Positions 1,519 through 13,645 of a stretch of DNA of 53,465 nt are shown piece after piece (position 1 is the first letter of the stretch; every line of letters starts with the position of its first letter). The stretch is from a virus, in IMG/VR virus record IMGVR_UViG_3300025083_000042, positions 1 to 53,465 of that record; one strand, 5' to 3'. A model generated the notes under the pieces. That model was given only the letters and a program-made list of their open reading frames with translations. It did no database searches and was not told the DNA's origin. Made by a program: the position numbers and the translations under genes.

Positions 1519-2238
1519 ATGCCTTTGCCAAAGATTGTAACTCCTGAGTATGACTTGGTATTACCATCAACACAGAAGAAAATTACTTATAGGCCCTTTT
1601 TAGTTAAAGAAGAAAAACTTCTAGTTCTTGCCCTCGAAAGTGAGAATACAAAACAGATTACAACCGCAATCAAATCTGTTTTAAAAAGTTGCATTCTTAC
1701 GAGAGGTATTAAAGTAGAGAAACTTCCGACTTTTGATATTGAATATTTGTTCTTAAATATCAGAGCAAGGTCGGTTGGTGAAGAAGTTGAGGTAAACATT
1801 GTGGCACCTGACGATGGTGAAACAAATGTAACAGTTACTATTGACCTTGAGGACATTCAAGTTCAAACTAATGAAAACCACTCTAATAAGATTAAACTTG
1901 ATGAGACTTTGGTAATGGAGATGAAGTATCCTTCATTGGAACAATTCATTTCAAACAACTTTGATTTTGAAGGTGAAACTGATATTAATCAATCATTTGA
2001 ATTAATTGCATCATGTATTGATAAGATTTATAATGAAGACGAGGTTTGGTCTACTGATGACTGTACTAAAAAGGAAGTCGTTGACTTCTTGGAACAGATG
2101 AGTTCAACACAATTTAAAGAAATTGAACAATTCTTTGAGACTATGCCAAAACTATCTCACACAATTGAGATTACTAACCCAAGCACTAAAGTAAAAAGTA
2201 CTATCGTTTTGGAGGGTTTATCCAGTTTTTTCGCATAG
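1519..2238 (+). CDS. gp26: Baseplate hub subunit gp26
   Basis: A 239-residue protein opening with the gp26-family pattern: a proline-rich start (PLPKI..PEYDL), then IPSTQ-like and YRPFLVKEEKLLVLALES, and a YLFLNIRARSVGE segment. T4 gp26 (208 residues) is a baseplate hub assembly component. The neighbouring gp51-like gene immediately downstream repeats the T4 26-51 pairing. The C-terminal half is acidic and contains an EQFISNNF segment. It is transcribed from the late promoter at 1486-1493. The frame is intact and the length is slightly greater than in T4. Confidence 0.85.
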   Translation: MPLPKIVTPEYDLVLPSTQKKITYRPFLVKEEKLLVLALESENTKQITTAIKSVLKSCILTRGIKVEKLPTFDIEYLFLNIRARSVGEEVEVNIVAPDDGETNVTVTIDLEDIQVQTNENHSNKIKLDETLVMEMKYPSLEQFISNNFDFEGETDINQSFELIASCIDKIYNEDEVWSTDDCTKKEVVDFLEQMSSTQFKEIEQFFETMPKLSHTIEITNPSTKVKSTIVLEGLSSFFA

Positions 2239-2240
2239 GC

Positions 2241-2420
2241 ATGATCCATATGGATCTAGAGAGTTATTTTAAATTAAACTTTGCGATGATGCAATACCAC
2301 AAATACTCTCTCACTGAAATTGAAAATATGATGCCCTTTGAAAGAGACATTTACGTTGCTCTCTTACAACAACATTTAGAGGAAGAAGAACAAAAGCAAA
2401 AGGCAAGACAGAATGGCTAG
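2241..2420 (+). CDS. gp51: Small gp51-like baseplate hub assembly protein
   Basis: A 59-residue ORF begins at ATG 2241 two bases after the gp26 stop; an in-frame ATG at 2250 would give 56 residues (MDLESYF...). It reads KLNFAMMQYHKYSLTEIENMMPFERDIY followed by an acidic, Gln-rich helix. Short proteins of this type follow gp26 in cyanophages and are usually labelled gp51 (hub assembly catalyst), although T4 gp51 is much longer, so the equivalence is positional. The pattern (aromatic start, TEIENMMPFER, helical tail) also resembles small tail-assembly chaperone fragments. Its 3' end overlaps the next gene by 8 bases, indicating coupled translation. Confidence 0.7.
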   Translation: MIHMDLESYFKLNFAMMQYHKYSLTEIENMMPFERDIYVALLQQHLEEEEQKQKARQNG

Positions 2421-5394
2421 AGATCCTAAAGTAACAAGAAAGGCTTATGAATATAAGTTAGGGAAGGATCTTGCCTCAAAATTAGACGATAAACAGATAT
2501 ATTTACTTTCACAATATTATAATTCTCTGAGTGATAAAGAAACTAGTAATATTGATAGTCAGATTGTTCAAGGAAGGAACAATACTGAACTTCATGAAAT
2601 GGCCATAGGTATGGTCGAAGAAAATGAAAGCAAAAAGACTCCACCTAAACCAAAGGCGAAGCCAAAACCAAAAGTAACTCCAAAACCAAAGGCAAAACCA
2701 AAAAAGGTCTACGATGAGAATAGATCTGTTGCATATAAGTTACCAAATCATATTCTCAAAGATCTTGATGAGGATCAAATAAGAGATTTATCAAGTTATT
2801 ATAATTCACTACCACCTGATCAAAAACGTAAGGTTGATAGTGAAATGGCGAAAGGTTCTGGTGATTTGATGGATCTTGCCCGTCAGATGTCCGATCCGTT
2901 ACAAGAAAAATATAATACTGGAGGGTTAGATACCTGGACCGGTAAACCCAAAGATAATAGTAATGCAAAGCAGGGCCCAATGCCAATGCCCTCTGCTAAG
3001 AAAAAACCAGACAAAAAGGCTGTAACCGCCCTTGTTAAGAAGTTTAGTACCGATAAAAAAGATACTAAACAACCTACTAATGAGACTATTGACCCAGAAG
3101 TATTGAATATGCTGGGTCTAGATGATATATCTGACTTTGATTATGATGATTATAAAACTCTTCTGAAAGAGAAGATGTTGGCCAATCAAATGGTTGGTGG
3201 TAGGGGTGATAATGATTTACTAAAAAATGAATTTAAGAGAGTAAAGAGTAAGACCGGTAGGTTCAAACCTAAGAAGAAAACAGTCAATGTATCTAAGGTA
3301 GTTCAAAGTGGTAAAAAATATAACAAATCTGCGGTCAATACACAAAAACTTTTAAGTGGTTCTAAAGAAGCAGAATCGACTAAAGCTCAAGTAAAGGGTA
3401 ACGCAGTTGCAGATTCTTTTGCAAATATCGGTCTAACTCTACTTGGTATTGATAGTCTTCTTAAGGGGTTGTTGGGTGAAGAGAAGAAAGAATCGGAACA
3501 AGACGCAAAAGCTGCAAGAAAATCTGCACAGAAGGCAGAGGAGGCCAAGTCTGAAAAGAGTGCAAAGACGAAAGCAACTAATGCACTAAAGGGGTTCAAA
3601 GCTCCGAAGATGGGTTTCCTTGATATGATCAAGAGATTTTTTAAGAATATCTTACTTGGTGGTTTTATACTGAAGGCACTTGATTGGTTTCAAGATGAAG
3701 AAAATCAAAAGAAAATTCAGAATGTAATTACATTTATTACAGATAATCTAGATAAAATTCTCGTGGGTATTGCTGCCCTGGTTGGTATTGGTATTGGTGC
3801 AAAGATACTTGGTTTCTTAACCTTGTTTACTCCTTTGGTAACCGGTTTATTTGGCCTACTTTCTGCAATGGCGCCCATATTAGCACCTATTGTCGCTGCA
3901 CTTTTACTTTGGAAAGGTGGCATGGAAGGAGGAAAGGCACTTCAAGATCTTATCAATAGACAAAGGGGTGGTGGTCAAAAGGAGACAGAAGAAGGATTGC
4001 GGTATAGTGACAAATCAGTAGAAGAACTTCGTCAAAGTTTAAATTTGTTGTTACAACAAACAGACAAAAAAACAAATCGTATTCCTCTACTCTTGGGTCT
4101 CTTTCCTGATTGGGCAAAACCATACAGTGAAGGTGAGAAAAGAGAATTTTTAGAAGATCAACTCAAAAAACTTGATGAGTTACAAAAAAGAATACGAATT
4201 ACTAAGTCTGTTAATGACGATTTGTATAGACTCCAATTACAATTAAAAAAGGGGAATACAGAACTTGAACGATTGAGATCTTCTGGCGCATCTACAGACA
4301 AAATTGAGAAACAGGAGAAATTTGTCAAGGACTTGGAAAAACAAGTACAAACTTTTACTACCAATAAAGAACAAAGTGTCAAAATAGAGCAAAGGTTAAT
4401 TGGTGATATTGATTTTAATGAGTTACTTAAAGACCCCAAACTTGCAAGCTCTATTCCAGATGAGATAAGGGACACACTCAAGAAGAGTTCTGCCAATGTA
4501 GAAGTACAAACAACAACTCCACAAACACCAATGCTTTCTTCTAGTGGTACACCAGATGTAATTATTCCTTTGGATCATGCAAGAGGTCGTATACCTGATA
4601 AAACTGGTGGTAACACATTTACAGCGGCAGGTCAGACCGGTGCTTATAACCCAATAACTGGAAGTACAGAAAGAGATTATCAGGATCCAGCTGCAGCAAT
4701 GTTACAGGCTGAGTTAGCAAAAAGTGGTGTTAAAGCAAAAATTGTAAGACCTGAAGATTTTGCAAGTTATGAAGAATATGACAAATTCTTGAAAAAAATG
4801 GATAACGCGGGAGTGGTTAGTGTCCCACTTCACTTTGACGCTATTAGATCCGCATCAGGAATTGGATATCTTACAAGAACAAGGTCAGGTGATGCTGGAG
4901 ATGCTAAATTGGCTGCCCCAATTAATGAAGTTTTAAAACAGTTTCAAGGTGAAAATTCAGACACTGGTACCTTTGCACCAGACACTAAACAAAATACAAC
5001 AGTAGACTTGAGTCGTAAGTCTCCAGCTGCTCTTGTAGAATTGGGTATCATGGCAGAGTTAGAAGCAAAGTTTGGGAAAAATTACACCAAACATCCTAAA
5101 TTTATAAAATTAATCCAAGGGCTTTCGGGGGCAATTATAGAGGGTGGTGGATTTCCGACTCCTCCCGGAATGCAGGAAGTCAAACCAGGTCATAGTAGAC
5201 CAGAACCACCAGCACCACCCAATACTGATCCGGCGCCTACAGTAATACCGATAGGTGGAGCAGGTTCTAGTGATCCCGAACTTTCAAGTGCTAGTGGTGG
5301 TCGAGCTGCTGCAGCATCATTCTCCTCAATAGATATGAGTAATATAAGCCTAGAACCAATTGGTGCAATGTATAACCTTCCAAAAGTAAGATAA
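2413..5394 (+). CDS. Large tail/hub protein with membrane-like segments and C-terminal amidase-like domain
   Basis: A 993-residue protein. Residues about 14-66 and 107-159 are a tandem repeat (each with a Q-I-Y/R..LS.YYNSL core) separated by a Lys/Pro-rich linker. Residues about 365-395 are a charged Ala/Lys/Glu helix. Residues 409-428 (FFKNILLGGF) and 449-500 are strongly hydrophobic. A coiled coil spans roughly 585-680. The C-terminal part shows the zinc-ligand pattern of N-acetylmuramoyl-L-alanine amidases of the Amidase_3 family: LDHARG (H722), E753, PLHFDA (H807) and LVELGI (E876). That enzyme class cuts stem peptides from glycan. Size, hydrophobic core and position before the gp27-like gene suggest a tape-measure or hub protein that reaches the host wall. 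Which of the two large proteins is the T4 gp29 counterpart is not clear. Its stop overlaps the next start (TAATG). Confidence 0.75.
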   Translation: MARDPKVTRKAYEYKLGKDLASKLDDKQIYLLSQYYNSLSDKETSNIDSQIVQGRNNTELHEMAIGMVEENESKKTPPKPKAKPKPKVTPKPKAKPKKVYDENRSVAYKLPNHILKDLDEDQIRDLSSYYNSLPPDQKRKVDSEMAKGSGDLMDLARQMSDPLQEKYNTGGLDTWTGKPKDNSNAKQGPMPMPSAKKKPDKKAVTALVKKFSTDKKDTKQPTNETIDPEVLNMLGLDDISDFDYDDYKTLLKEKMLANQMVGGRGDNDLLKNEFKRVKSKTGRFKPKKKTVNVSKVVQSGKKYNKSAVNTQKLLSGSKEAESTKAQVKGNAVADSFANIGLTLLGIDSLLKGLLGEEKKESEQDAKAARKSAQKAEEAKSEKSAKTKATNALKGFKAPKMGFLDMIKRFFKNILLGGFILKALDWFQDEENQKKIQNVITFITDNLDKILVGIAALVGIGIGAKILGFLTLFTPLVTGLFGLLSAMAPILAPIVAALLLWKGGMEGGKALQDLINRQRGGGQKETEEGLRYSDKSVEELRQSLNLLLQQTDKKTNRIPLLLGLFPDWAKPYSEGEKREFLEDQLKKLDELQKRIRITKSVNDDLYRLQLQLKKGNTELERLRSSGASTDKIEKQEKFVKDLEKQVQTFTTNKEQSVKIEQRLIGDIDFNELLKDPKLASSIPDEIRDTLKKSSANVEVQTTTPQTPMLSSSGTPDVIIPLDHARGRIPDKTGGNTFTAAGQTGAYNPITGSTERDYQDPAAAMLQAELAKSGVKAKIVRPEDFASYEEYDKFLKKMDNAGVVSVPLHFDAIRSASGIGYLTRTRSGDAGDAKLAAPINEVLKQFQGENSDTGTFAPDTKQNTTVDLSRKSPAALVELGIMAELEAKFGKNYTKHPKFIKLIQGLSGAIIEGGGFPTPPGMQEVKPGHSRPEPPAPPNTDPAPTVIPIGGAGSSDPELSSASGGRAAAASFSSIDMSNISLEPIGAMYNLPKVR

Positions 5395-7427
5395 TGGCAT
5401 TACCACTATTACTCGGCGGAGCAGCAAAAGGTTTAATTGGTTCTGGCAAAAAGAAACCAAAGTCTGGCAAAGAAGTCGCAGGAAAACTTGTCAAACGTAA
5501 AGAAGAACAAGATACTAAAAAGCCTTCGGTACAAAAGAAACTCGCACCTACTCAGGTGTCAGGTAAAAAGTTTTTTGGTAGTAAATCATCAACTCCTAAA
5601 GTAAAGAAACTAAAACCAAATACAGGTAATAGTCAATTAGATGATGTACTTCAGTCGATTCAATCATCAGTATCTAAATTGGCAGGTACTATTGGGAATT
5701 TTGTGAGATTTAAAAGAAAGGATGGTGCAGAGAAGACTAAAAGAAAAAATAAAATGTTGGCCCGTCTGAGAGAAGTTGGGTTTGGAATGGTAGGTGGTGC
5801 TTTACTTTTAGGTAAACAGTTACTCAAAAAAATTCCATTTTTTGATAGGATTAAAAACTTCTTTGTGAATATCCTACTCGGTGGTCTTGTATTGATGATA
5901 CTTGACAATATTAAACCGATCATTGAAACTATAAAAGATGTTGTAAAAAAAATTAAAAATATATTCAAATTAATCAATAAGTATCTCTTTCAACCAATGA
6001 TAGAAGCTGGTAAGTTTCTTATTGGTACGGTATTACCTATTATAAATGATATACTCAAATCTCCACCTGTTGATTTTGTAATAACTCAAATTGAAAATCT
6101 AATCAAGACTCTTGAGGATACTTTTCCTGGTCTTGAAACTATTAGTAATACCGTTGGGGATCTTTTTAAAAAGATACAAGGTGTAGTATTGCCTGGTGGT
6201 GGTACTGACAATTCTTCTGATAGTTCTCAATATGACACATCTTCAGGTGGATTACTTGCACCGGGTGGTGTAGAACAAGGTGAAAAGGCAAAGGGTCAAG
6301 TATCTCAGGCTGGATTTGGTGAATCTGAATTTCTTCTTTATAGAGATACTGTTGCACAGATTGAATCCGGTGGAAAATACGATATTCAGGGTGGATCGAA
6401 GGATGAGTTTGGCGTTGGTAAGTATGCCGGTAGATATCAGATGGGTGCAATGGCCAGAAAAGATGCTGCAAGACTACTAGGTGAAACATATCAAGGAGAT
6501 GATGAAGCAGCAAGAAAAACATTTAGGGAAGATAAACAAATGCAGGAAAGATATTTTGCTGCATATACTCGTGCTAATCATCAGTTACTGATGAATAGTA
6601 GTTCTGAATATAGAGAGCTACCTAAAGAAGAAAAACTTCAAGTTCTTGGTTATGCACATAATCTTGGATGGTCTAACGCAGCTGAGTGGTTAGCTCGTGG
6701 AAGAACTAATAGTGGTGCTGATGGTGCAGGAACAAAAGCGGACACATTTGCAAAAAATATTAAAAAGGCACAAGAGGAAAGAAGACAACCAGTACCACCT
6801 GCACTAAGGTCTCCAGCTCAGGCAGGTAAAAGTAGAGTTCAGACTGATATTGAAGAATTTAGACAGTTTAGAACACAATTTGGGTATACTTCACAAAGAA
6901 AACCAACTCTTAATGCAGAGAACTTACAAATTCGTGAAATGGGTACCTATGGTAGTGGTAACTATGACATCAGTCCTTTGGCTGATGATACCAACTATGA
7001 GATTGAGGTACATAAAGGTGCAGGACATCATGAAAACCGTGCGTTTGATATTCCAGTTCCTAGTAAAGCAGTTGGTGACAAAGTTAGTCAATTCTGGAAA
7101 TCAAAAGGTTACACTACTATTTGGCAATCAAAGGGACATTATAATCATGTTCATGTAGAAGTTCCTAAAAATAAAGCTGCAGAGTTTTTCAATATTGCAC
7201 CAGAACAACCACAAGTGGCACCACCTGCTGAAAGAAGAGAAGCAGAAGAGATTAGTAGACAGGCAGAATATGAAAAGCAGGGAGGAACTGTAATTATTGC
7301 TGCGTCTACTCCCACTGGAGAGAGTGGTGGTGATTCTGGTTCTGGTGGTGGAAGTCCTACTATTATTGATGGCGGTTCAAATAAATACCTAGAGATTGCA
7401 ATGCAAAATAATTTATTCAGTCGATAA
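5394..7427 (+). CDS. Large tail/hub protein with lysozyme-like and M15-peptidase-like domains
   Basis: A 677-residue protein with a basic N-terminus (about 1-130). Residues 156-170 form a hydrophobic segment, FFVNILLGGLVL, resembling residues 409-428 of the preceding protein, and hydrophobic helices follow to about 215. Residues about 312-460 look like a lysozyme/lytic transglycosylase: IESGGKY with candidate catalytic E324, GRYQMG at 346-351 and YAHNLGW near 420. Residues about 510-600 carry an M15-type (D,D-/L,D-peptidase) pattern: H545-x6-D552 (GHHENRAFDI) and NHVHVE with H585/H587. A Gly/Ser-rich tail follows. I infer a virion-associated wall-degrading protein working with the upstream amidase-like protein. 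This may compensate for the missing lysozyme domain in the gp5-like protein downstream. The domain calls are by motif only. Confidence 0.75.
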   Translation: MALPLLLGGAAKGLIGSGKKKPKSGKEVAGKLVKRKEEQDTKKPSVQKKLAPTQVSGKKFFGSKSSTPKVKKLKPNTGNSQLDDVLQSIQSSVSKLAGTIGNFVRFKRKDGAEKTKRKNKMLARLREVGFGMVGGALLLGKQLLKKIPFFDRIKNFFVNILLGGLVLMILDNIKPIIETIKDVVKKIKNIFKLINKYLFQPMIEAGKFLIGTVLPIINDILKSPPVDFVITQIENLIKTLEDTFPGLETISNTVGDLFKKIQGVVLPGGGTDNSSDSSQYDTSSGGLLAPGGVEQGEKAKGQVSQAGFGESEFLLYRDTVAQIESGGKYDIQGGSKDEFGVGKYAGRYQMGAMARKDAARLLGETYQGDDEAARKTFREDKQMQERYFAAYTRANHQLLMNSSSEYRELPKEEKLQVLGYAHNLGWSNAAEWLARGRTNSGADGAGTKADTFAKNIKKAQEERRQPVPPALRSPAQAGKSRVQTDIEEFRQFRTQFGYTSQRKPTLNAENLQIREMGTYGSGNYDISPLADDTNYEIEVHKGAGHHENRAFDIPVPSKAVGDKVSQFWKSKGYTTIWQSKGHYNHVHVEVPKNKAAEFFNIAPEQPQVAPPAERREAEEISRQAEYEKQGGTVIIAASTPTGESGGDSGSGGGSPTIIDGGSNKYLEIAMQNNLFSR

Positions 7428-7428
7428 T

Positions 7429-8742
7429 ATGGTATTAAATAATCCTCAAACAGGTCCAGGTAATATAAAGAAATTTACTATTACTTCGAATAAAGGTGGT
7501 AGACAGATTGATTTGTCTAATGGGGTTGTAGAATATCGTTATTATGAAAATGTATTGTCAAATCATATTACATCGAGTGCAATTATAGTAGAGACTGGTG
7601 AACAACTCGAAGGTTCTGCACCAGGTACCTTAGATTCTCTACCAATCAGGGGTGGTGAAAAGACCGATATTATTGTTGAAGATGTTGTTGGGAATGAGTT
7701 GAAGATTGGTAACGGTATGTACGTCAATCGAGTGCAAAATGGAATACCTGGTACAGCTAAAGATATATACCAACTTAATTTTGTATCTGAAGAATATTTC
7801 TTAAATGAACAGACAAGAGTTACTAAAAGATACGAGGGTAATATTGGAACAAATATTGGAGTAATCTTAGCAGATATATTGGGTACAAAAGAATTAATTG
7901 ATATTGATGATACTTCAAATACCTATAATTTTATGGGTAATACTAAAAAACCTTTTTATATTTGTACATGGTTGGCATCTAAATCAATTCCAACATCTTC
8001 TGGAGAAAATTCTGGACCTGCTGGATACTTATTCTTTCAGACGAGAGATGGTTTGTGTTTTAAATCAATTGACGGTCTGTTCTCAAAAGACCCGATAAAG
8101 AAATTTTTATTCAATGATACTGGTAAATTAGTTGCTGGTTATGATGCTAATATATTATCATATAATATTGAAAGTGATATTGATATGACTCGAAATATAA
8201 GTATTGGTGCTTATAATAATAAGACAACTTATTTTGATTTTGTCGGGATGATTTATAAACAGATAGATTTTAATACCGATGTTGCAAAGGATAGTGTAAA
8301 GACTGCTGGTAGAGATTATGACAATGTAAATAAAAAATATACTAAAGACCCACATCGATTTTTTTCTTATATCAAAGATATTGGTGTCAATCCAAATGGG
8401 ACAGGAAATGAGCAATTAGATAATTGGAAAAGCGATAACACAAAACAAAATTTTGATTCTGAACAGGCTCTTGTTCAAGCATTCATGAGATACAATCAAA
8501 TGTTTACAGTTCAAACAAATATTATTATTGCTGGTGATTTCTCGATCAAGGCGGGCGATATGATTGAGTGTGATTTTCCGCAGTTAGAAACTAAATTAAA
8601 TAAAGAAACGAACCAACAAAGTGGGGGTAAATATATGGTAGCAAGTGTATGTCATAAAGTGACTCCAAGAGAAACATATACAAGTTTGGGTTTGGTAAGA
8701 GACTCTTTCGGTAAAACTACAGGTTTTGGTGGTGTAAACTAA
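7429..8742 (+). CDS. gp27: Baseplate hub protein, gp27-like
   Basis: A 437-residue protein. I start it at ATG 7429, one base after the upstream stop; an in-frame TTG at 7396 would overlap the previous gene and is unlikely. The N-terminal half has hub/late-control-D-like beta segments (GGRQIDLSNGVVEYRYYENVL, GNELKIGNGMYV). The C-terminus has the family ending: FSIKAGDMIECDFP, then GGKYMVASVCHKVTPRETYTSLGLVRDSFG. In T4, gp27 is the trimeric hub that binds the gp5 spike. The gene immediately downstream is gp5-like, matching this pairing, and the two overlap by one base (TAATG). Confidence 0.75.
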   Translation: MVLNNPQTGPGNIKKFTITSNKGGRQIDLSNGVVEYRYYENVLSNHITSSAIIVETGEQLEGSAPGTLDSLPIRGGEKTDIIVEDVVGNELKIGNGMYVNRVQNGIPGTAKDIYQLNFVSEEYFLNEQTRVTKRYEGNIGTNIGVILADILGTKELIDIDDTSNTYNFMGNTKKPFYICTWLASKSIPTSSGENSGPAGYLFFQTRDGLCFKSIDGLFSKDPIKKFLFNDTGKLVAGYDANILSYNIESDIDMTRNISIGAYNNKTTYFDFVGMIYKQIDFNTDVAKDSVKTAGRDYDNVNKKYTKDPHRFFSYIKDIGVNPNGTGNEQLDNWKSDNTKQNFDSEQALVQAFMRYNQMFTVQTNIIIAGDFSIKAGDMIECDFPQLETKLNKETNQQSGGKYMVASVCHKVTPRETYTSLGLVRDSFGKTTGFGGVN

Positions 8743-11246
8743 TGTTTGATTTAGGTATCAAGACACATTCGATAGGAAGAGATGGGTATGTTTGGTGGGT
8801 AGGCCAGATTGCTAGTGAAGACTCCTGGAAAGAAAATAAACCAGAGAACCCTAAAGATTCCAATGAAGACATAAAAGGTTTTGGCGAAAGATATCGAGTT
8901 GCAATTGTGGGGTATACCCCTTTTAATACTCAAGAAGTTAGTGATGCTGAATTACAGTGGGCATCTGTTGAATATCCAGTAACTGCCGGTAGTGGAGGTA
9001 GAGGATCATCATGCTCTGCAAACCTTGTACAAGGTGATTTTGTTCGTGGGTATTTTCTCGATGGAGAAGAAGGACAGATACCGATTATTTGTGCAGTAAT
9101 TGGAAAAAATGAATATCAAGCTATTACAAAGAATATATCAGCTGAAGAAAGATTTGGTAATTCTAGTGGCCTTGTACCAACTGATTATGCGCCTTGGTAT
9201 ACTCAAAGAATCGAAACGATTGGGGAGATAATCACTCCCGACCAGACTGAAGGGAATGGCGGGAACATGTTTGTTGTTGGAGAAGGTACATCACAATACG
9301 TTAATTCTTTTTTATTAGTAAGTTCTAGTGGTGGCAATGCACAAAAAGAAGCTGCATCAAAAGCTGCATCAGAGGAACCAACTGTTCCACTTGCCCTACC
9401 ATCCGACTGTGAACCTATACCACTAGGTAAGATACAAAAAGAAATTCAGAATCTTATTGTAGAAATTCAGAAAATTAATAAAGCAGTTTATGATAAGGCT
9501 AATTCAATAAATGCTGATATTGCAGAAGTTCAGGAAGAAATTAATAAGAAAATTGCTAAAGCAACAGAATTTGTTGCAAGTGGAATAAAATGGATTTTTA
9601 CAGAAATTCAAAAATTTGTCATTAAGACTACTAACGACACTCTCAAAAAAACATATTTTTTACTCTTCCCAAACGAAAGACCCGGACTTAAAACCGCAGT
9701 CGAAAATATTAACGATTTGATTGCGTGTCTTTTCAGAAAGTTGATTAAACAGTTATTGTCAATGATTGGCAATTTTCTTGTAGACGCCGCAAGTAAAGTT
9801 GTTAATGGTGTGCAGTGTCTAGTAGAAAATGTAATCGGTCATATTCTTGGAAAACTTATCGGTGCAATATCAGATATTATAAATGGTGCATTATCAGCAG
9901 TCAGTTCTTTGGTTGGTCAGGCTGCAGGTATTGTTGGAGAAATTGTTGGTATTATTAAAGATATACTTTCGTTCTTATCTTGTGAGGAAAAACCACAGTG
10001 TTCTTCTGTTGATGAATGGAATATTTTAAGTGGGGCTAGTAAAGGATTTTCTGGAGATATTAACTCTATTATTAATAAGGCAAAGAACGTTGCCGGATCA
10101 GTTCAAAACATTGCTGGATCAGTTACAAATTCTGTAGAAAGTGTGGGAAGCAGTATCGACGATGCACTTAATATGGATTTTAGTGATGTATTCAATCAAA
10201 CTGGTTGTAATATAGGTCCAGTATTTTGTGGACCACCTACTGCACAATTTTTTGGACTAGGTGGTGGTGCTGCAGGTAATCTTGTGGTTGGTTCCTTGGG
10301 TGAGGTCATTGGAATTGATATGATAAATTTTGGATCTGGATATAATAATGATTCTTATGGAAAGGTATACGATAACTGTGGTAAAGGTAAAGGTGCATAC
10401 ATTAGACCCATTGTAAGTGACTATACCGACGAAGAAGGTAATTTACAGACTGGGGGTATTACTGATATTGAAATTATAGAACCAGGAACTGGCTATCTTC
10501 CTGCACCGGATGGAAGTAGAGGTGGTAATGAATACACTTGGTCAGATCCAGATGATACAGTTATAAGAACTCCTGATGGATCATGGTTACCTATTCCTCC
10601 AGGAGAAGTAGTTACTGTCGATCCCGGCACTACCATCACTCTTCCACCGGGTACAGTTGTTATAACAAATCCACAACCCGGTGGAGACCCCACAATACCA
10701 CCATTTGACCCTATACTTGACCCAGGAACTGGTGGAGATGGTACCGGTGGAGGAGGTAATGGTGACGGCAATAATGGTTCTACTGATGGTGGTCAAGGTG
10801 GTGGTGAAACTATTCAAGGTGGTAATCCGGTGCTTATTGAATTGCCTGGTGTTTTTACTACACCTAAACCCGAATATAAAAGATCGTCAGGTGACTATCC
10901 AACATCATCTAATGGTTCTTATCCGGTCATTCTTTATCTTTGCGAAATCTTTATCGATGAAAGTGGCATCAATTATTCTCCAGGAGACAAAGTTATTATT
11001 GAACCAGACATTGGTGCAGTTGTAGAACCTAAATTTAATGCCCGTGGTAGATTGACTTCCATCAAGGTTACTGAAAGTGGAGAAGGTTTCACTAAATATC
11101 CAACACTTTACATTCAATCTGAAACCGGTTATAATGCTGTATTGCGACCAAAACTTTGTATAGATAGAGTTGGTAATGATAAGCTCAAAGAGCCAACATT
11201 CCAAGACAAAGTTATAACCGTGATTGATTGTGTAGGTAAAGTTTAA
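8742..11246 (+). CDS. gp5: gp5-like baseplate hub/spike protein with OB-fold N-terminus, no lysozyme domain
   Basis: An 834-residue protein. The first ~150 residues resemble the gp5/VgrG OB-fold: YVWWVGQI, YRVAIVGY, LQWASVEYPVTAG, GDFVRGYFLDGEEGQIPIICAVIG. T4 gp5 follows this with a lysozyme domain, but I see none here. Instead there is a long helical region (about 225-430) with an amphipathic/hydrophobic stretch near 375-415, a Pro/Gly-rich linker (about 615-695) and two beta-rich repeats (near 525-600 and 735-810) of the GSGY...ITDIEIIEPGTGY type. Similar repeats occur in the giant protein at 22677. It probably sits between the gp27-like hub and the separate spike tip encoded next. The TAATG overlap at its end suggests coupled translation. 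Confidence 0.75.
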   Translation: MFDLGIKTHSIGRDGYVWWVGQIASEDSWKENKPENPKDSNEDIKGFGERYRVAIVGYTPFNTQEVSDAELQWASVEYPVTAGSGGRGSSCSANLVQGDFVRGYFLDGEEGQIPIICAVIGKNEYQAITKNISAEERFGNSSGLVPTDYAPWYTQRIETIGEIITPDQTEGNGGNMFVVGEGTSQYVNSFLLVSSSGGNAQKEAASKAASEEPTVPLALPSDCEPIPLGKIQKEIQNLIVEIQKINKAVYDKANSINADIAEVQEEINKKIAKATEFVASGIKWIFTEIQKFVIKTTNDTLKKTYFLLFPNERPGLKTAVENINDLIACLFRKLIKQLLSMIGNFLVDAASKVVNGVQCLVENVIGHILGKLIGAISDIINGALSAVSSLVGQAAGIVGEIVGIIKDILSFLSCEEKPQCSSVDEWNILSGASKGFSGDINSIINKAKNVAGSVQNIAGSVTNSVESVGSSIDDALNMDFSDVFNQTGCNIGPVFCGPPTAQFFGLGGGAAGNLVVGSLGEVIGIDMINFGSGYNNDSYGKVYDNCGKGKGAYIRPIVSDYTDEEGNLQTGGITDIEIIEPGTGYLPAPDGSRGGNEYTWSDPDDTVIRTPDGSWLPIPPGEVVTVDPGTTITLPPGTVVITNPQPGGDPTIPPFDPILDPGTGGDGTGGGGNGDGNNGSTDGGQGGGETIQGGNPVLIELPGVFTTPKPEYKRSSGDYPTSSNGSYPVILYLCEIFIDESGINYSPGDKVIIEPDIGAVVEPKFNARGRLTSIKVTESGEGFTKYPTLYIQSETGYNAVLRPKLCIDRVGNDKLKEPTFQDKVITVIDCVGKV

Positions 11247-11827
11247 TGGCGGAAGTAAAAAATTATCATACAATTAGGTATGGTCAAGCAGACGGTGAAA
11301 TAAAGTTTGGCCATCTTACTCAAGACAATGTTCTTTCATCAGTCTTGTTGAGAAGTGGAAAATCGAAGAACCATTATATTACGATGGACTCCTCTGGGGC
11401 TCCTCATCGTAAATATGGAACTATTTGTCGATCACCCGGCTCATTTCAGGTAAGGGCAGGTGATAATGTAGATAAAGATGTGCCTGGGGTATATGTTGAA
11501 GCAGTTAGTGGTGATTTAGTTCTACGAGCTCCCAGTGGAAGAGTTAGAATAGAGGGAGTTAACATCGATTTAATTGCATCTGGTGCTGACGGTCAAAATG
11601 GTGTTATTACCATTGATGCTAACGAAAAAATACTTATGAGGGCACAAACTATTGACGTTTCATCTAAAGTATCGACTAGACTATTCTCAGAGAAAACAGT
11701 TGAACTTATCGGAAATGCAATCTTAAATATGTATGGTGGATTCGTTGATATTGCAGATGGTGCCACAGCAATCAAGGGTTCAATTCTTCCATCACAAAAT
11801 GAAATACAAAATCTACCAATAGGCTAA
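11246..11827 (+). CDS. Beta-helical spike tip protein (gp5 C-terminal-like)
   Basis: A 193-residue protein that directly follows the gp5-like gene with a one-base overlap. Residues about 85-165 show short repeating beta-strand units (YVEAVSGDLVLRAPSGRVRIEGVNIDLIASG..., ITIDANEKILMRAQTIDVSSK) typical of the triple-stranded beta-helix of T4 gp5C and VgrG spikes. I infer that the membrane-piercing spike, which is fused to gp5 in T4, is a separate polypeptide here. No PAAR-type metal-binding tip motif is obvious within it. The stop overlaps the next start. Confidence 0.65.
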   Translation: MAEVKNYHTIRYGQADGEIKFGHLTQDNVLSSVLLRSGKSKNHYITMDSSGAPHRKYGTICRSPGSFQVRAGDNVDKDVPGVYVEAVSGDLVLRAPSGRVRIEGVNIDLIASGADGQNGVITIDANEKILMRAQTIDVSSKVSTRLFSEKTVELIGNAILNMYGGFVDIADGATAIKGSILPSQNEIQNLPIG

Positions 11828-12162
11828 TGACTTTAAATATTCCGCATCCACAGAAGAAAGGAAAAAGACTTGAATACTCCTCTTTACATGGTCCTGAGCA
11901 TGGTGTATACTATAGAGGTAGATTGAGAGGTCACGATAGAATTGAACTGCCTGAGGTGTGGAGAGACCTTGTAGAAGAACTTTCTATTACGGTATCAATT
12001 ACACCTATCGGTATGGCACAAAGTATTATTGTGAAGGGTATTCAGAATAATCAGGTCATACTAGATTCAAATCCAGGTGTTCCTATTGATTGTTATTATC
12101 ATGTATATGGTGAACGAAAGGATGTTCCAAGACTTAAGACAGAGGGTAAGGTTAAATCATGA
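11827..12162 (+). CDS. Small structural protein, first of three tandem paralogues
   Basis: A 111-residue protein consisting almost entirely of a domain that also forms the C-terminal half of the next two proteins. Shared landmarks are H-P at the start, RLEYSSLHGPEHGVYYRGR, a LP..WRDLV segment, SITVSITPIG and CYYHVYGERKD. The two larger copies add an N-terminal region and a C-terminal EYPGETPADYPG extension that this one lacks. Proteins with this domain are common virion proteins of cyanophages; their exact position is unknown to me. Overlaps on both sides (TAATG and a four-base ATGA) indicate one tightly coupled unit with the spike genes. Confidence 0.75.
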   Translation: MTLNIPHPQKKGKRLEYSSLHGPEHGVYYRGRLRGHDRIELPEVWRDLVEELSITVSITPIGMAQSIIVKGIQNNQVILDSNPGVPIDCYYHVYGERKDVPRLKTEGKVKS

Positions 12163-12935
12163 AGGTACCTGACATCAATGTAGGTAAGAGATTATTTGTT
12201 GGATTAGGAAATCCAGAATGTCTGGGTAGAGGACTAGCAGAAATTCGCGGGTCTGGTTATATGCAGGGCCCTACTATTACAGGGACTCCAACTTTCCCTA
12301 ATGTATGGGCATCATCAATGATTGGTCCTCTGATCAATCCAGAATCAACACCCCCTTTAATTCCTGGTGGGTTCTGTTATGGTCCTCCTGCTAATCCATT
12401 TTCTTTAGCTGTTGTTGGTTCAACCGCTTTAATGGGTATGGTTAACACCAATGCTGATGTAATTGTTGGAAGACATCTTGCAGTACAGGGTGAAATAGTT
12501 TCTAATTGTGGAGTTCATGTTCTATCTGTTAAAAAGAACTTTGATATTGTCCACCCTTCAAAAACCGGTTGGAGGTTGAGGCATACTTGTCCAGAAGGGC
12601 CTACTAATGACGTATACTTTAGAGGAACACTGAAGGATAAAGATTATATTGACCTTCCTACATATTGGAAGGATTTTGTTCATAGAGAATCTATCACTGT
12701 TAGTTTGACACCGATAGGAGCTCATCAAGATATCATCGTGAAGAAAATTGACAAAGATAAGATTTATCTTCAATCACGATCTGATACACCAATCCATTGT
12801 TTCTATCATGCATATGCAGAAAGAAAGGATGGTGAAAGTTTGATTCCTGAGTATCCAGGTGAAACACCTGCAGATTATCCAGGGAATAACGATCAATACT
12901 CAATTGTAGGATACCATTACGATATTAAATCATGA
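12159..12935 (+). CDS. Structural protein, second of three tandem paralogues
   Basis: A 258-residue protein. Residues 1-125 are Gly/Pro-rich with turn-like segments (GLGNPECLGRGLAEIRGSGY, PLINPESTPPLIPGG, SLAVVGSTALMG), suggesting a beta-structured attachment or spike-capping region. From FDIVHPSKTGWRLRHTCPEGP (about 129) onwards it carries the domain shared with the flanking genes, including ITVSLTPIGAHQDIIV and CFYHAYAERKDGE, and ends in IPEYPGETPADYPGNNDQYSIVGYHYD. It overlaps both neighbours by four bases. Function is inferred as virion structural (baseplate or spike-adjacent) from context. Confidence 0.78.
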   Translation: MKVPDINVGKRLFVGLGNPECLGRGLAEIRGSGYMQGPTITGTPTFPNVWASSMIGPLINPESTPPLIPGGFCYGPPANPFSLAVVGSTALMGMVNTNADVIVGRHLAVQGEIVSNCGVHVLSVKKNFDIVHPSKTGWRLRHTCPEGPTNDVYFRGTLKDKDYIDLPTYWKDFVHRESITVSLTPIGAHQDIIVKKIDKDKIYLQSRSDTPIHCFYHAYAERKDGESLIPEYPGETPADYPGNNDQYSIVGYHYDIKS

Positions 12936-13645
12936 CAGACTCATTATTTGGTCCATTTAAACCAGGCTCACCAGGAAATCAAGATTGCTCAGACGGTCAA
13001 GCCAGAGGGTTACCATCAGGCAATTTTTCATATATTCAAAAAAATAATAATAATGATGCCACGGCCCCTACGCCCAATCCATATTCAAAACCTCAGTGTG
13101 AACCCTATTATCATTCCACTGCCACGATTGATCAACTTGATATTACTACCAATCTGACTGGTGCTACTGCAACTTTCTCTGGTACAGTTACTGCTCCTAC
13201 ATTTTCGGGGCAAATTAATGTGCAATCTTGGAAAGGGTTTGATATTAAACACCCCAACAAAGATGGCCATCGATTGAGACACATCTGTATGGAGGGTCCA
13301 GAGGCTGGTGTTTATATTAGAGGAAGGTGTAAAGGAACTACGATTACATGTCCTGCATACTGGCAAGGATTAGTTGATCCTGAGTCAATCAGTGTCAATC
13401 TGACTCCAATTGGTTGTTATCAAGAACTCTTTGTTGAGTCAATTGAATGGGGTAAGAGAATTCAGATTAGAAACAATCTGGGTGGTCATATTGAGTGTTT
13501 CTATACGATTACTGCACAAAGAATTGATGGAGAGCCATTGATTGTTGAGTATGAGGGAGAGACACCTGCCAAGTACCCAGGAAGTTCTGATCAGTTCTCT
13601 ATCTCGGGGTATGACTATGATGTCAGAAGCCAGAAGACGAAGTAG
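12932..13645 (+). CDS. Structural protein, third of three tandem paralogues
   Basis: A 237-residue protein. The N-terminus is low-complexity (Asn/Pro-rich, about 25-60) and is followed by a short fibre-like beta stretch (LDITTNLTGATATFSGTVTAPTFSG). From FDIKHPNKDGHRLRHICMEGP (about 106) the shared domain begins, with SVNLTPIGCYQELFV, HIECFYTITAQRIDGE and a terminal EYEGETPAKYPGSSDQFSISGYDYD. This is the last gene of the hub/spike block. A sigma70-type promoter for a different gene set starts 12 bases after its stop, so transcription probably changes hands here. Confidence 0.78.
   Translation: MTDSLFGPFKPGSPGNQDCSDGQARGLPSGNFSYIQKNNNNDATAPTPNPYSKPQCEPYYHSTATIDQLDITTNLTGATATFSGTVTAPTFSGQINVQSWKGFDIKHPNKDGHRLRHICMEGPEAGVYIRGRCKGTTITCPAYWQGLVDPESISVNLTPIGCYQELFVESIEWGKRIQIRNNLGGHIECFYTITAQRIDGEPLIVEYEGETPAKYPGSSDQFSISGYDYDVRSQKTK

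Follow-up and report, generated by a model that had tools for sequence, protein, structure and literature searches.

Swappable wall-hydrolase cassettes predicted in two adjacent tape-measure/hub-like tail proteins of T4-like marine phages

The DNA analysed here, which we call the window, is a 53-kb stretch (53,465 nucleotides) of IMG/VR record IMGVR_UViG_3300025083_000042, and it is a fragment of a T4-like marine phage. Its tail module runs along the plus strand in the order gp26-like, short gp51-position ORF, P1, P2, gp27-like, and gp5-like. The gp26-like baseplate hub protein (1519..2238; T4_baseplate, Pfam PF12322, E 2.6e-73) acts as a syntenic anchor, and next to it lies a 59-aa ORF (2241..2420) that overlaps the start of P1 and is assigned to the gp51 position from its sequence and from the annotation of this ORF in some cyanophages (S-PM2, P-HM1, and Syn1). 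P1 (2413..5394, plus strand, 993 aa) is a tape-measure/hub-like protein whose ends are conserved and which has a single enzyme cassette; P2 (5394..7427, plus strand, 677 aa) is a second tape-measure/hub-like protein with two such cassettes; the ATG of P2 and the stop codon of P1 share one base (TAATG). Downstream are the gp27-like hub protein (7429..8742; phrog_350, T4-GC 15, PHROG E 7.5e-82), with its start set from relatives, and the gp5-like spike (8742..11246; phrog_1922, E 3e-100), which has an OB fold and no detected lysozyme domain.

The nearest named phages of the gp27-like protein are Synechococcus phages (49% to S-H68), and the gene order of the window is also found in S-WAM1, RN05-S, S-SCSM1, Sf-CH1b, S-CREM2, S-PM2, P-HM1, and Syn1. 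Comparison loci are given L-numbers below; most of the close relatives are IMG/VR metagenomic contigs, and one of them, L001, is nearly identical to the window. The spike gene is followed by three adjoining proteins (11827-12162, 12159-12935, and 12932-13645) that contain a repeated module (HPNKxGHRLRH...GVYxRGR...ESIxVxLTPIG) and are apparently paralogues.

The enzyme cassette of P1 is a predicted amidase at residues 712-905 (4546..5127, plus strand), recognised by Pfam, ligand conservation, and fold. Residues 742-882 match Amidase_3 with 31.9 bits (cut-off 27, E 1.7e-7), P1 scores 35.6 bits for this family in the genome scan, and a profile built from four P1 sequences reaches the solved LytH structure at E 0.0012. 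The zinc ligands and catalytic Glu (H722, E753, H807, and the catalytic E876) are invariant across 21 sequences. A structure model of residues 690-916 (mean pLDDT 88.7) matches LytH, CwlD, Nostoc AmiC2, and PlyPSA with a probability of 1.00 and E ~1e-7, as well as Ami1 (probability 1.00), and nearly all of its 28 PDB matches at E <=0.001 are Amidase_3 enzymes. From profile and model, this domain is predicted to cut the MurNAc-L-Ala bond.

The first cassette of P2, at residues 301-470 (6294..6803, plus strand; E324, GRYQ), is of the lysozyme/lytic-transglycosylase type. PHROG 5867 ('endolysin') matches residues 307-460 at E 7e-37, relatives of the domain are encoded by 233 viral-contig stretches, and E324 is invariant in a nine-sequence alignment. 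A Pfam search of P2 finds no lysozyme or SLT family, the P2 lysozyme profile retrieves chance matches alone among PDB sequences (ABL SH3 domains), and searching PDB sequences directly with P1 and P2 yields nothing useful. The model of P2 (residues 285-625) reaches a pLDDT of 90-98 in the lysozyme-like part; as submitted to the PDB fold search it contains disordered linkers, and it matches MltE, a lytic transglycosylase, best (probability 1.00, with a weak E of 0.013) and goose-type lysozyme next (probability 0.96). In BFVD, the matches at E <=1e-3 comprise SLT domains of phages as well as a 'baseplate hub + tail lysozyme' of an Agrobacterium phage. The predicted domain is placed in the lysozyme-like superfamily (GH23/SLT/goose type), an assignment made at the superfamily level only.

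The second P2 cassette is an M15/LAS-like candidate metallopeptidase at residues 500-612 (6891..7229, plus strand), assigned from its motif and by hhalign. Its zinc motif, H545-x6-D552 with H585-x-H587, is invariant in six near-identical sequences, and a wider scan of viral contigs with the segment finds just near-identical copies already in hand, so this conservation says little. For this part of P2 there is no Pfam match (M15 or VanY) and no PDB fold match, and the model is partial (pLDDT about 65-80). PF08291 (M15_3) returns nothing above the cut-off in L001 or in five cyanophage genomes, and the M15-like profile by itself gives chance matches only. Weak tblastn matches of the segment fall in tape-measure proteins of mycobacterial and Brevibacterium phages, and hhalign aligns it with actinophage tape-measure proteins at a probability of 96% over the H-x6-D...HxH region. 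With the actinophage tape-measure profile, a search reaches the solved chain 9flh at E 5e-4; hedgehog domains, members of the LAS superfamily, are found weakly. We assign residues 500-612 to a putative LAS-type metallopeptidase with moderate confidence.

The original prediction had proposed three wall-degrading activities over these two adjacent tail proteins and none in the gp5-like spike, and this layout is recovered here at the level of predicted domains. Both ORFs have the coordinates it gave, and every residue that it named in P1 and P2 is where it was placed. Its Amidase_3-like domain is borne out by the profile score, the invariant ligands, and the fold, and its lysozyme-like domain by the PHROG match, the related folds, and the invariant glutamate. 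For the M15-peptidase-like domain, the motif residues and a remote profile link agree with the claim, but matches to Pfam and to a PDB fold are lacking. The domain reading as a whole thus stands for the three domains, but it missed that these cassettes are exchangeable.

Alignments of P1 and P2 with close relatives have conserved ends and replaced middles. Taking identities of about 17-26% as the background of a forced alignment, P2 and its L005 counterpart are 87 and 82% identical in the scaffold and 95% in the M15 domain, with a replaced lysozyme (17%); P2 and its L006 counterpart are 85 and 71% identical in the scaffold and 90% in the lysozyme, with a replaced M15 domain (20%); and P1 is 96, 72, 79, and 87% identical to that of L003 in the scaffold with an amidase at 26%, and 96, 95, and 91% identical to that of L005 with an amidase at 18%. 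Cassettes are also shared between the two genes. For example, amidase-b is 85% identical between P1 of L003 and P2 of L011, the lysozyme of the window type 75% between P1 of L011 and P2 of L002, an M23 domain 74% between P1 of L057 and P2 of L003, and amidase-a, the window type, 58% between P1 of L002 and P2 of the isolate Sf-CH1b. With conservative profiles, ten cassette families are found at both P1 and P2 positions, and a cassette is recognised in 24 of 72 P1 proteins and 23 of 49 P2 proteins, counting complete ones, which leaves many relatives unassigned.

Pfam families across 62 P1 and 49 P2 relatives comprise Amidase_3, Amidase_2, Phage_lysozyme, Phage_lysozyme2, Peptidase_M23, Glucosaminidase, Hydrolase_2, SLT, SLT_3, DPBB_1, VanY, and C-type lysozyme. 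These sequence comparisons point to P1 and P2 as a putative modular set of tools by which the host wall would be opened in infection. Other parts of the two proteins also vary in position: the N-terminal MARDPK module of the window's P1 (69% over 70 aa) is carried by the second of the two proteins, not the first, in L117, L120, and L123, and at L089:7727-12709 one 113-aa stretch is present in both P1 and P2 with 78% identity, through internal exchange or duplication. The T4-GC numbers of P1 and P2 differ among S-PM2, P-HM1, and Syn1 (L246, L247, and L249), which share the numbers of gp26, gp51, gp27-like, and gp5; standard clustering thus hides the homology of P1 and P2.

Five cassette combinations are found in the seven phages of the window's clade (window/L001, L002, L003, L005, L006, L007, and L101/L103). 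Each has an amidase in P1 and a glycosidase followed by a metallopeptidase in P2, and the families differ within each slot. The combinations are amidase-a with lysozyme-1 + M15; amidase-b with lysozyme-1 + M23a; and amidase-c with SleB-like + M15, with lysozyme-1 + M23b, or with lysozyme-2 + M15, where the class labels of amidase-c, SleB-like, lysozyme-2, and M23b are based on motif and modest profile links. In the isolate RN05-S, P1 has amidase-b and P2 has lysozyme-1 + M23c. An unsupervised all-against-all hhalign comparison of 14 cassettes ranks seven same-class pairs first, with a sharp drop after them; the link between lysozyme-1 and lysozyme-2 is weak.

As judged from these alignments, P1 has a single enzyme slot and, within the window's clade, P2 has a pair, each slot keeping its predicted activity class. 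Conservation of an amidase, a glycosidase, and a peptidase in one clade suggests selection for cutting all three kinds of bond. Only two activities are recognised in L011, Sf-CH1b, L027, L057, and L113, and these loci together with S-CREM2 indicate that the triad is no universal rule. A general rule of complementary activities in P1 and P2 was considered and dropped, as it is valid in the window's clade but fails in S-CREM2, where two glycosidases (GH19 and Phage_lysozyme) are accompanied by a weak amidase match.

P1 is likely a tape measure, and P2 may be one, judging from position, the PHROG matches of relatives, hydrophobic segments, and, for P1, a sequence motif. A Kyte-Doolittle scan finds a hydrophobic stretch at residues 445-504 of P1 (3745..3924, plus strand), a possible membrane-inserting segment, and another at residues 152-178 of P2 (5847..5927, plus strand). 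No other tape-measure candidate appears among nine further large ORFs of the window that were searched. Instead, only one of the pair could be the tape measure, with its partner acting as separate cargo or as a plug of the hub, and the enzyme domains alone swapping between unrelated carriers. The tape-measure-like PGEFVM-type motif, present in 22 of 72 P1 proteins and in none of 49 P2 proteins, and the dissimilar ends of P1 and P2 speak for such a division, but some P2 relatives match 'tail length tape measure' PHROGs, and hydrophobic-region similarity links some P1 and P2 proteins as best matches (e.g. L085 P1 to L018 P2). We regard this division as a serious possibility, though not the probable one.

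S-CREM2, the longest-tailed cyanomyovirus isolate (418 nm), has a very large P1 and P2 (1565 and 1456 aa), and its virion protein table names no protein as tape measure. Gene length against tail length was considered as proof of a tape measure and rejected; the S-CREM2 genes are large, yet the ratio is not proportional.

The original prediction also held that the gp5-like protein, in contrast to T4 gp5, has no lysozyme, and that the muralytic function had moved out of the spike. The former is upheld: when 12 gp5-like proteins are combined into a profile, T4 gp5 is matched at residues 26-129, which form the OB fold, and not in its lysozyme part, Gp5_OB is matched by 18 of 31 gp5-like relatives, and a muralytic Pfam domain is found in none of these 31 or in the spike of the window. 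At the position of the T4 lysozyme, the middle of the gp5-like protein (~residues 230-490) resembles coiled/hydrophobic parts of tape-measure PHROGs (E 1e-9). The move itself is not supported, as the arrangement is common to 8/8 of the cyanophage isolates examined and no Phage_lysozyme match is found in gp5 of the Stenotrophomonas, Rhizobium, and Vibrio relatives. From these two observations, the spike lysozyme of T4 may be the derived state.

A spike that once bore a lysozyme, with its function moved into P1 and P2 in this lineage, would fit the presence of this domain in T4 gp5 against 0/31 gp5-like relatives here, as well as the match of an Agrobacterium-phage hub/spike protein to the P2 lysozyme model. 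It appears improbable, given the lysozyme-free gp5 of those three other relatives and given that the cassettes belong to many unrelated families, which makes repeated capture simpler than a single move.

A search for five hydrolase families covered 12 complete phage genomes, eight of them cyanophages. The eight cyanophage genomes contain 10 matches, 9 of which lie inside P1 or P2, and the tenth is a separate 169-aa lysozyme ORF of S-PM2. Proteomics of purified S-CREM2 virions detected the products of ORF208 and ORF209 by 73 and 71 unique peptides, respectively (PMC10665884). These two proteins occupy the P1 and P2 positions and have GH19 and Phage_lysozyme domains plus a weak amidase match. 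The authors of that study considered them endolysins, perhaps capsid-borne (PMC10665884); their place beside the hub genes suggests a location in the tail.

Public records label relatives of P1 and P2 as endolysin, lysozyme, or 'lysis', and PHROG 5867 and 12490 are classed as endolysin, all of which would suit ordinary cell-lysis endolysins that happen to sit in the tail operon. We reject this identity as very improbable because the proteins are large (677-1565 aa) and have extended non-enzymatic regions as well as hydrophobic stretches, because their genes are flanked by hub genes in an order that is conserved, and because both S-CREM2 proteins were detected in the virion; S-PM2 moreover has its distinct lysozyme ORF elsewhere. 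An artefact of metagenome assembly deserves almost no credence as the source of the mosaic pattern, even with close relatives being mostly IMG/VR contigs, since identical arrangements recur across samples (L001 and L009; L003 and L004; L101/L103 and L104) and isolates show exchange too (amidase-a in P2 of Sf-CH1b; amidase-b in P1 and lysozyme + M23 in P2 of RN05-S).

The reading we prefer, at a probability of roughly 0.76, is that P1 and P2, encoded in tandem, are tape-measure/hub-type tail proteins and carry swappable, predicted virion-associated wall hydrolases. Under this proposal, P1 and P2 would ride in the tail tube or hub, as may be expected from the one relative with measured virion presence, S-CREM2. 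By analogy with T4, the sheath would contract, the enzyme-free spike would breach the outer membrane, and P1 and P2 would enter the periplasm. There, the amidase is predicted to cut the MurNAc-L-Ala bond, the lysozyme/transglycosylase-like domain the glycan strands, and the M15-like domain peptide stems or cross-links. The hydrophobic stretches of P1 and P2 might then, more speculatively, line the path of the DNA through the inner membrane.

Over evolutionary time, the predicted activity class of a slot is kept in the window's clade as its enzyme gives way to one of a different family, and the comparisons show that cassettes cross between the P1 and P2 genes over larger distances. More tentatively, and on balance doubtfully, P1 and P2 together could be a two-piece tape measure and at once a dedicated exchange platform, in which each class of wall bond has its own slot, three in all, refilled by recombination with unrelated enzymes of the same class, probably selected by host wall chemistry or by inhibitors from the host or competing phages.

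Marine cyanobacterial T4-like phages are very abundant, and their route of wall penetration is largely unannotated. The cyanophage spike is routinely labelled 'tail lysozyme', an annotation corrected by the finding of no lysozyme in the gp5-like proteins here. Most annotations of the P1 and P2 genes read hypothetical or endolysin, and the gene clusters to which they belong differ from phage to phage, a hypervariability that one cassette-swapping locus would explain. Treating them as a single homologous locus also allows a test of whether the swaps are driven by wall chemistry or by host range.

Several known systems resemble parts of this arrangement. The tail lysozyme of T4 gp5 (1k28, 1pdl) is likewise a virion-borne wall hydrolase of the central tail, encoded in the corresponding operon region and with the OB fold kept; by contrast, the enzymes of the window lie in two upstream genes and belong to other families, and its gp5-like protein is lysozyme-free. 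Tape measures of the TM4 type also have a wall-cutting domain on a tape-measure-type tail protein. Motif 3 of the TM4 Tmp has demonstrated wall-cutting activity, is non-essential, and aids infection of stationary cells (PMC1796659), and further tape measures with peptidoglycan hydrolase motifs are the T5 straight fibre and that of phiIPLA35 (PMC6116005). The TM4-type protein is, however, a single long siphovirus protein, whereas the window, from a contractile phage of the T4 type, has up to three domains spread over a pair of tandem proteins, and the cassettes are exchanged both within each gene and from one gene to the other.

Among cyanophages, enzymes at this locus have been annotated as 'peptidase M15B and M15C' in P-HM1 (PHM1_019, P1 position), 'endolysin' and 'peptidase family M23' in RN05-S, and 'endolysin' and 'tail length tape measure protein' in S-SCSM1, and ORF208/209 of S-CREM2 belong here too. 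Sullivan et al. 2010 (PMC3037559) reported that the syntenic peptidases of P-HM1 and P-HM2 have diverged to the point of falling in different gene clusters. In the literature we searched, mostly openly accessible papers, no description was found that treats P1 and P2 together as one exchange locus of two genes whose slots are conserved.

Reconfigurable Sle1 effectors of actinobacterial contractile systems (PMC13277306) also combine a tape-measure-type carrier with an exchangeable functional domain, but they belong to a cellular injection system and have other functional domains, with no phage wall hydrolases. Tail-associated lysins surveyed in enterococcal phages (PMC10194240) include transglycosylase domains in the tape measures of many phages; they differ in their Gram-positive hosts, in that a single lysin class is reported in tape measures, and in having no two-gene exchange. 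Enzyme domains in tape measures and peptidases annotated at this locus are thus already known, and what is new here is their slot-wise exchange.
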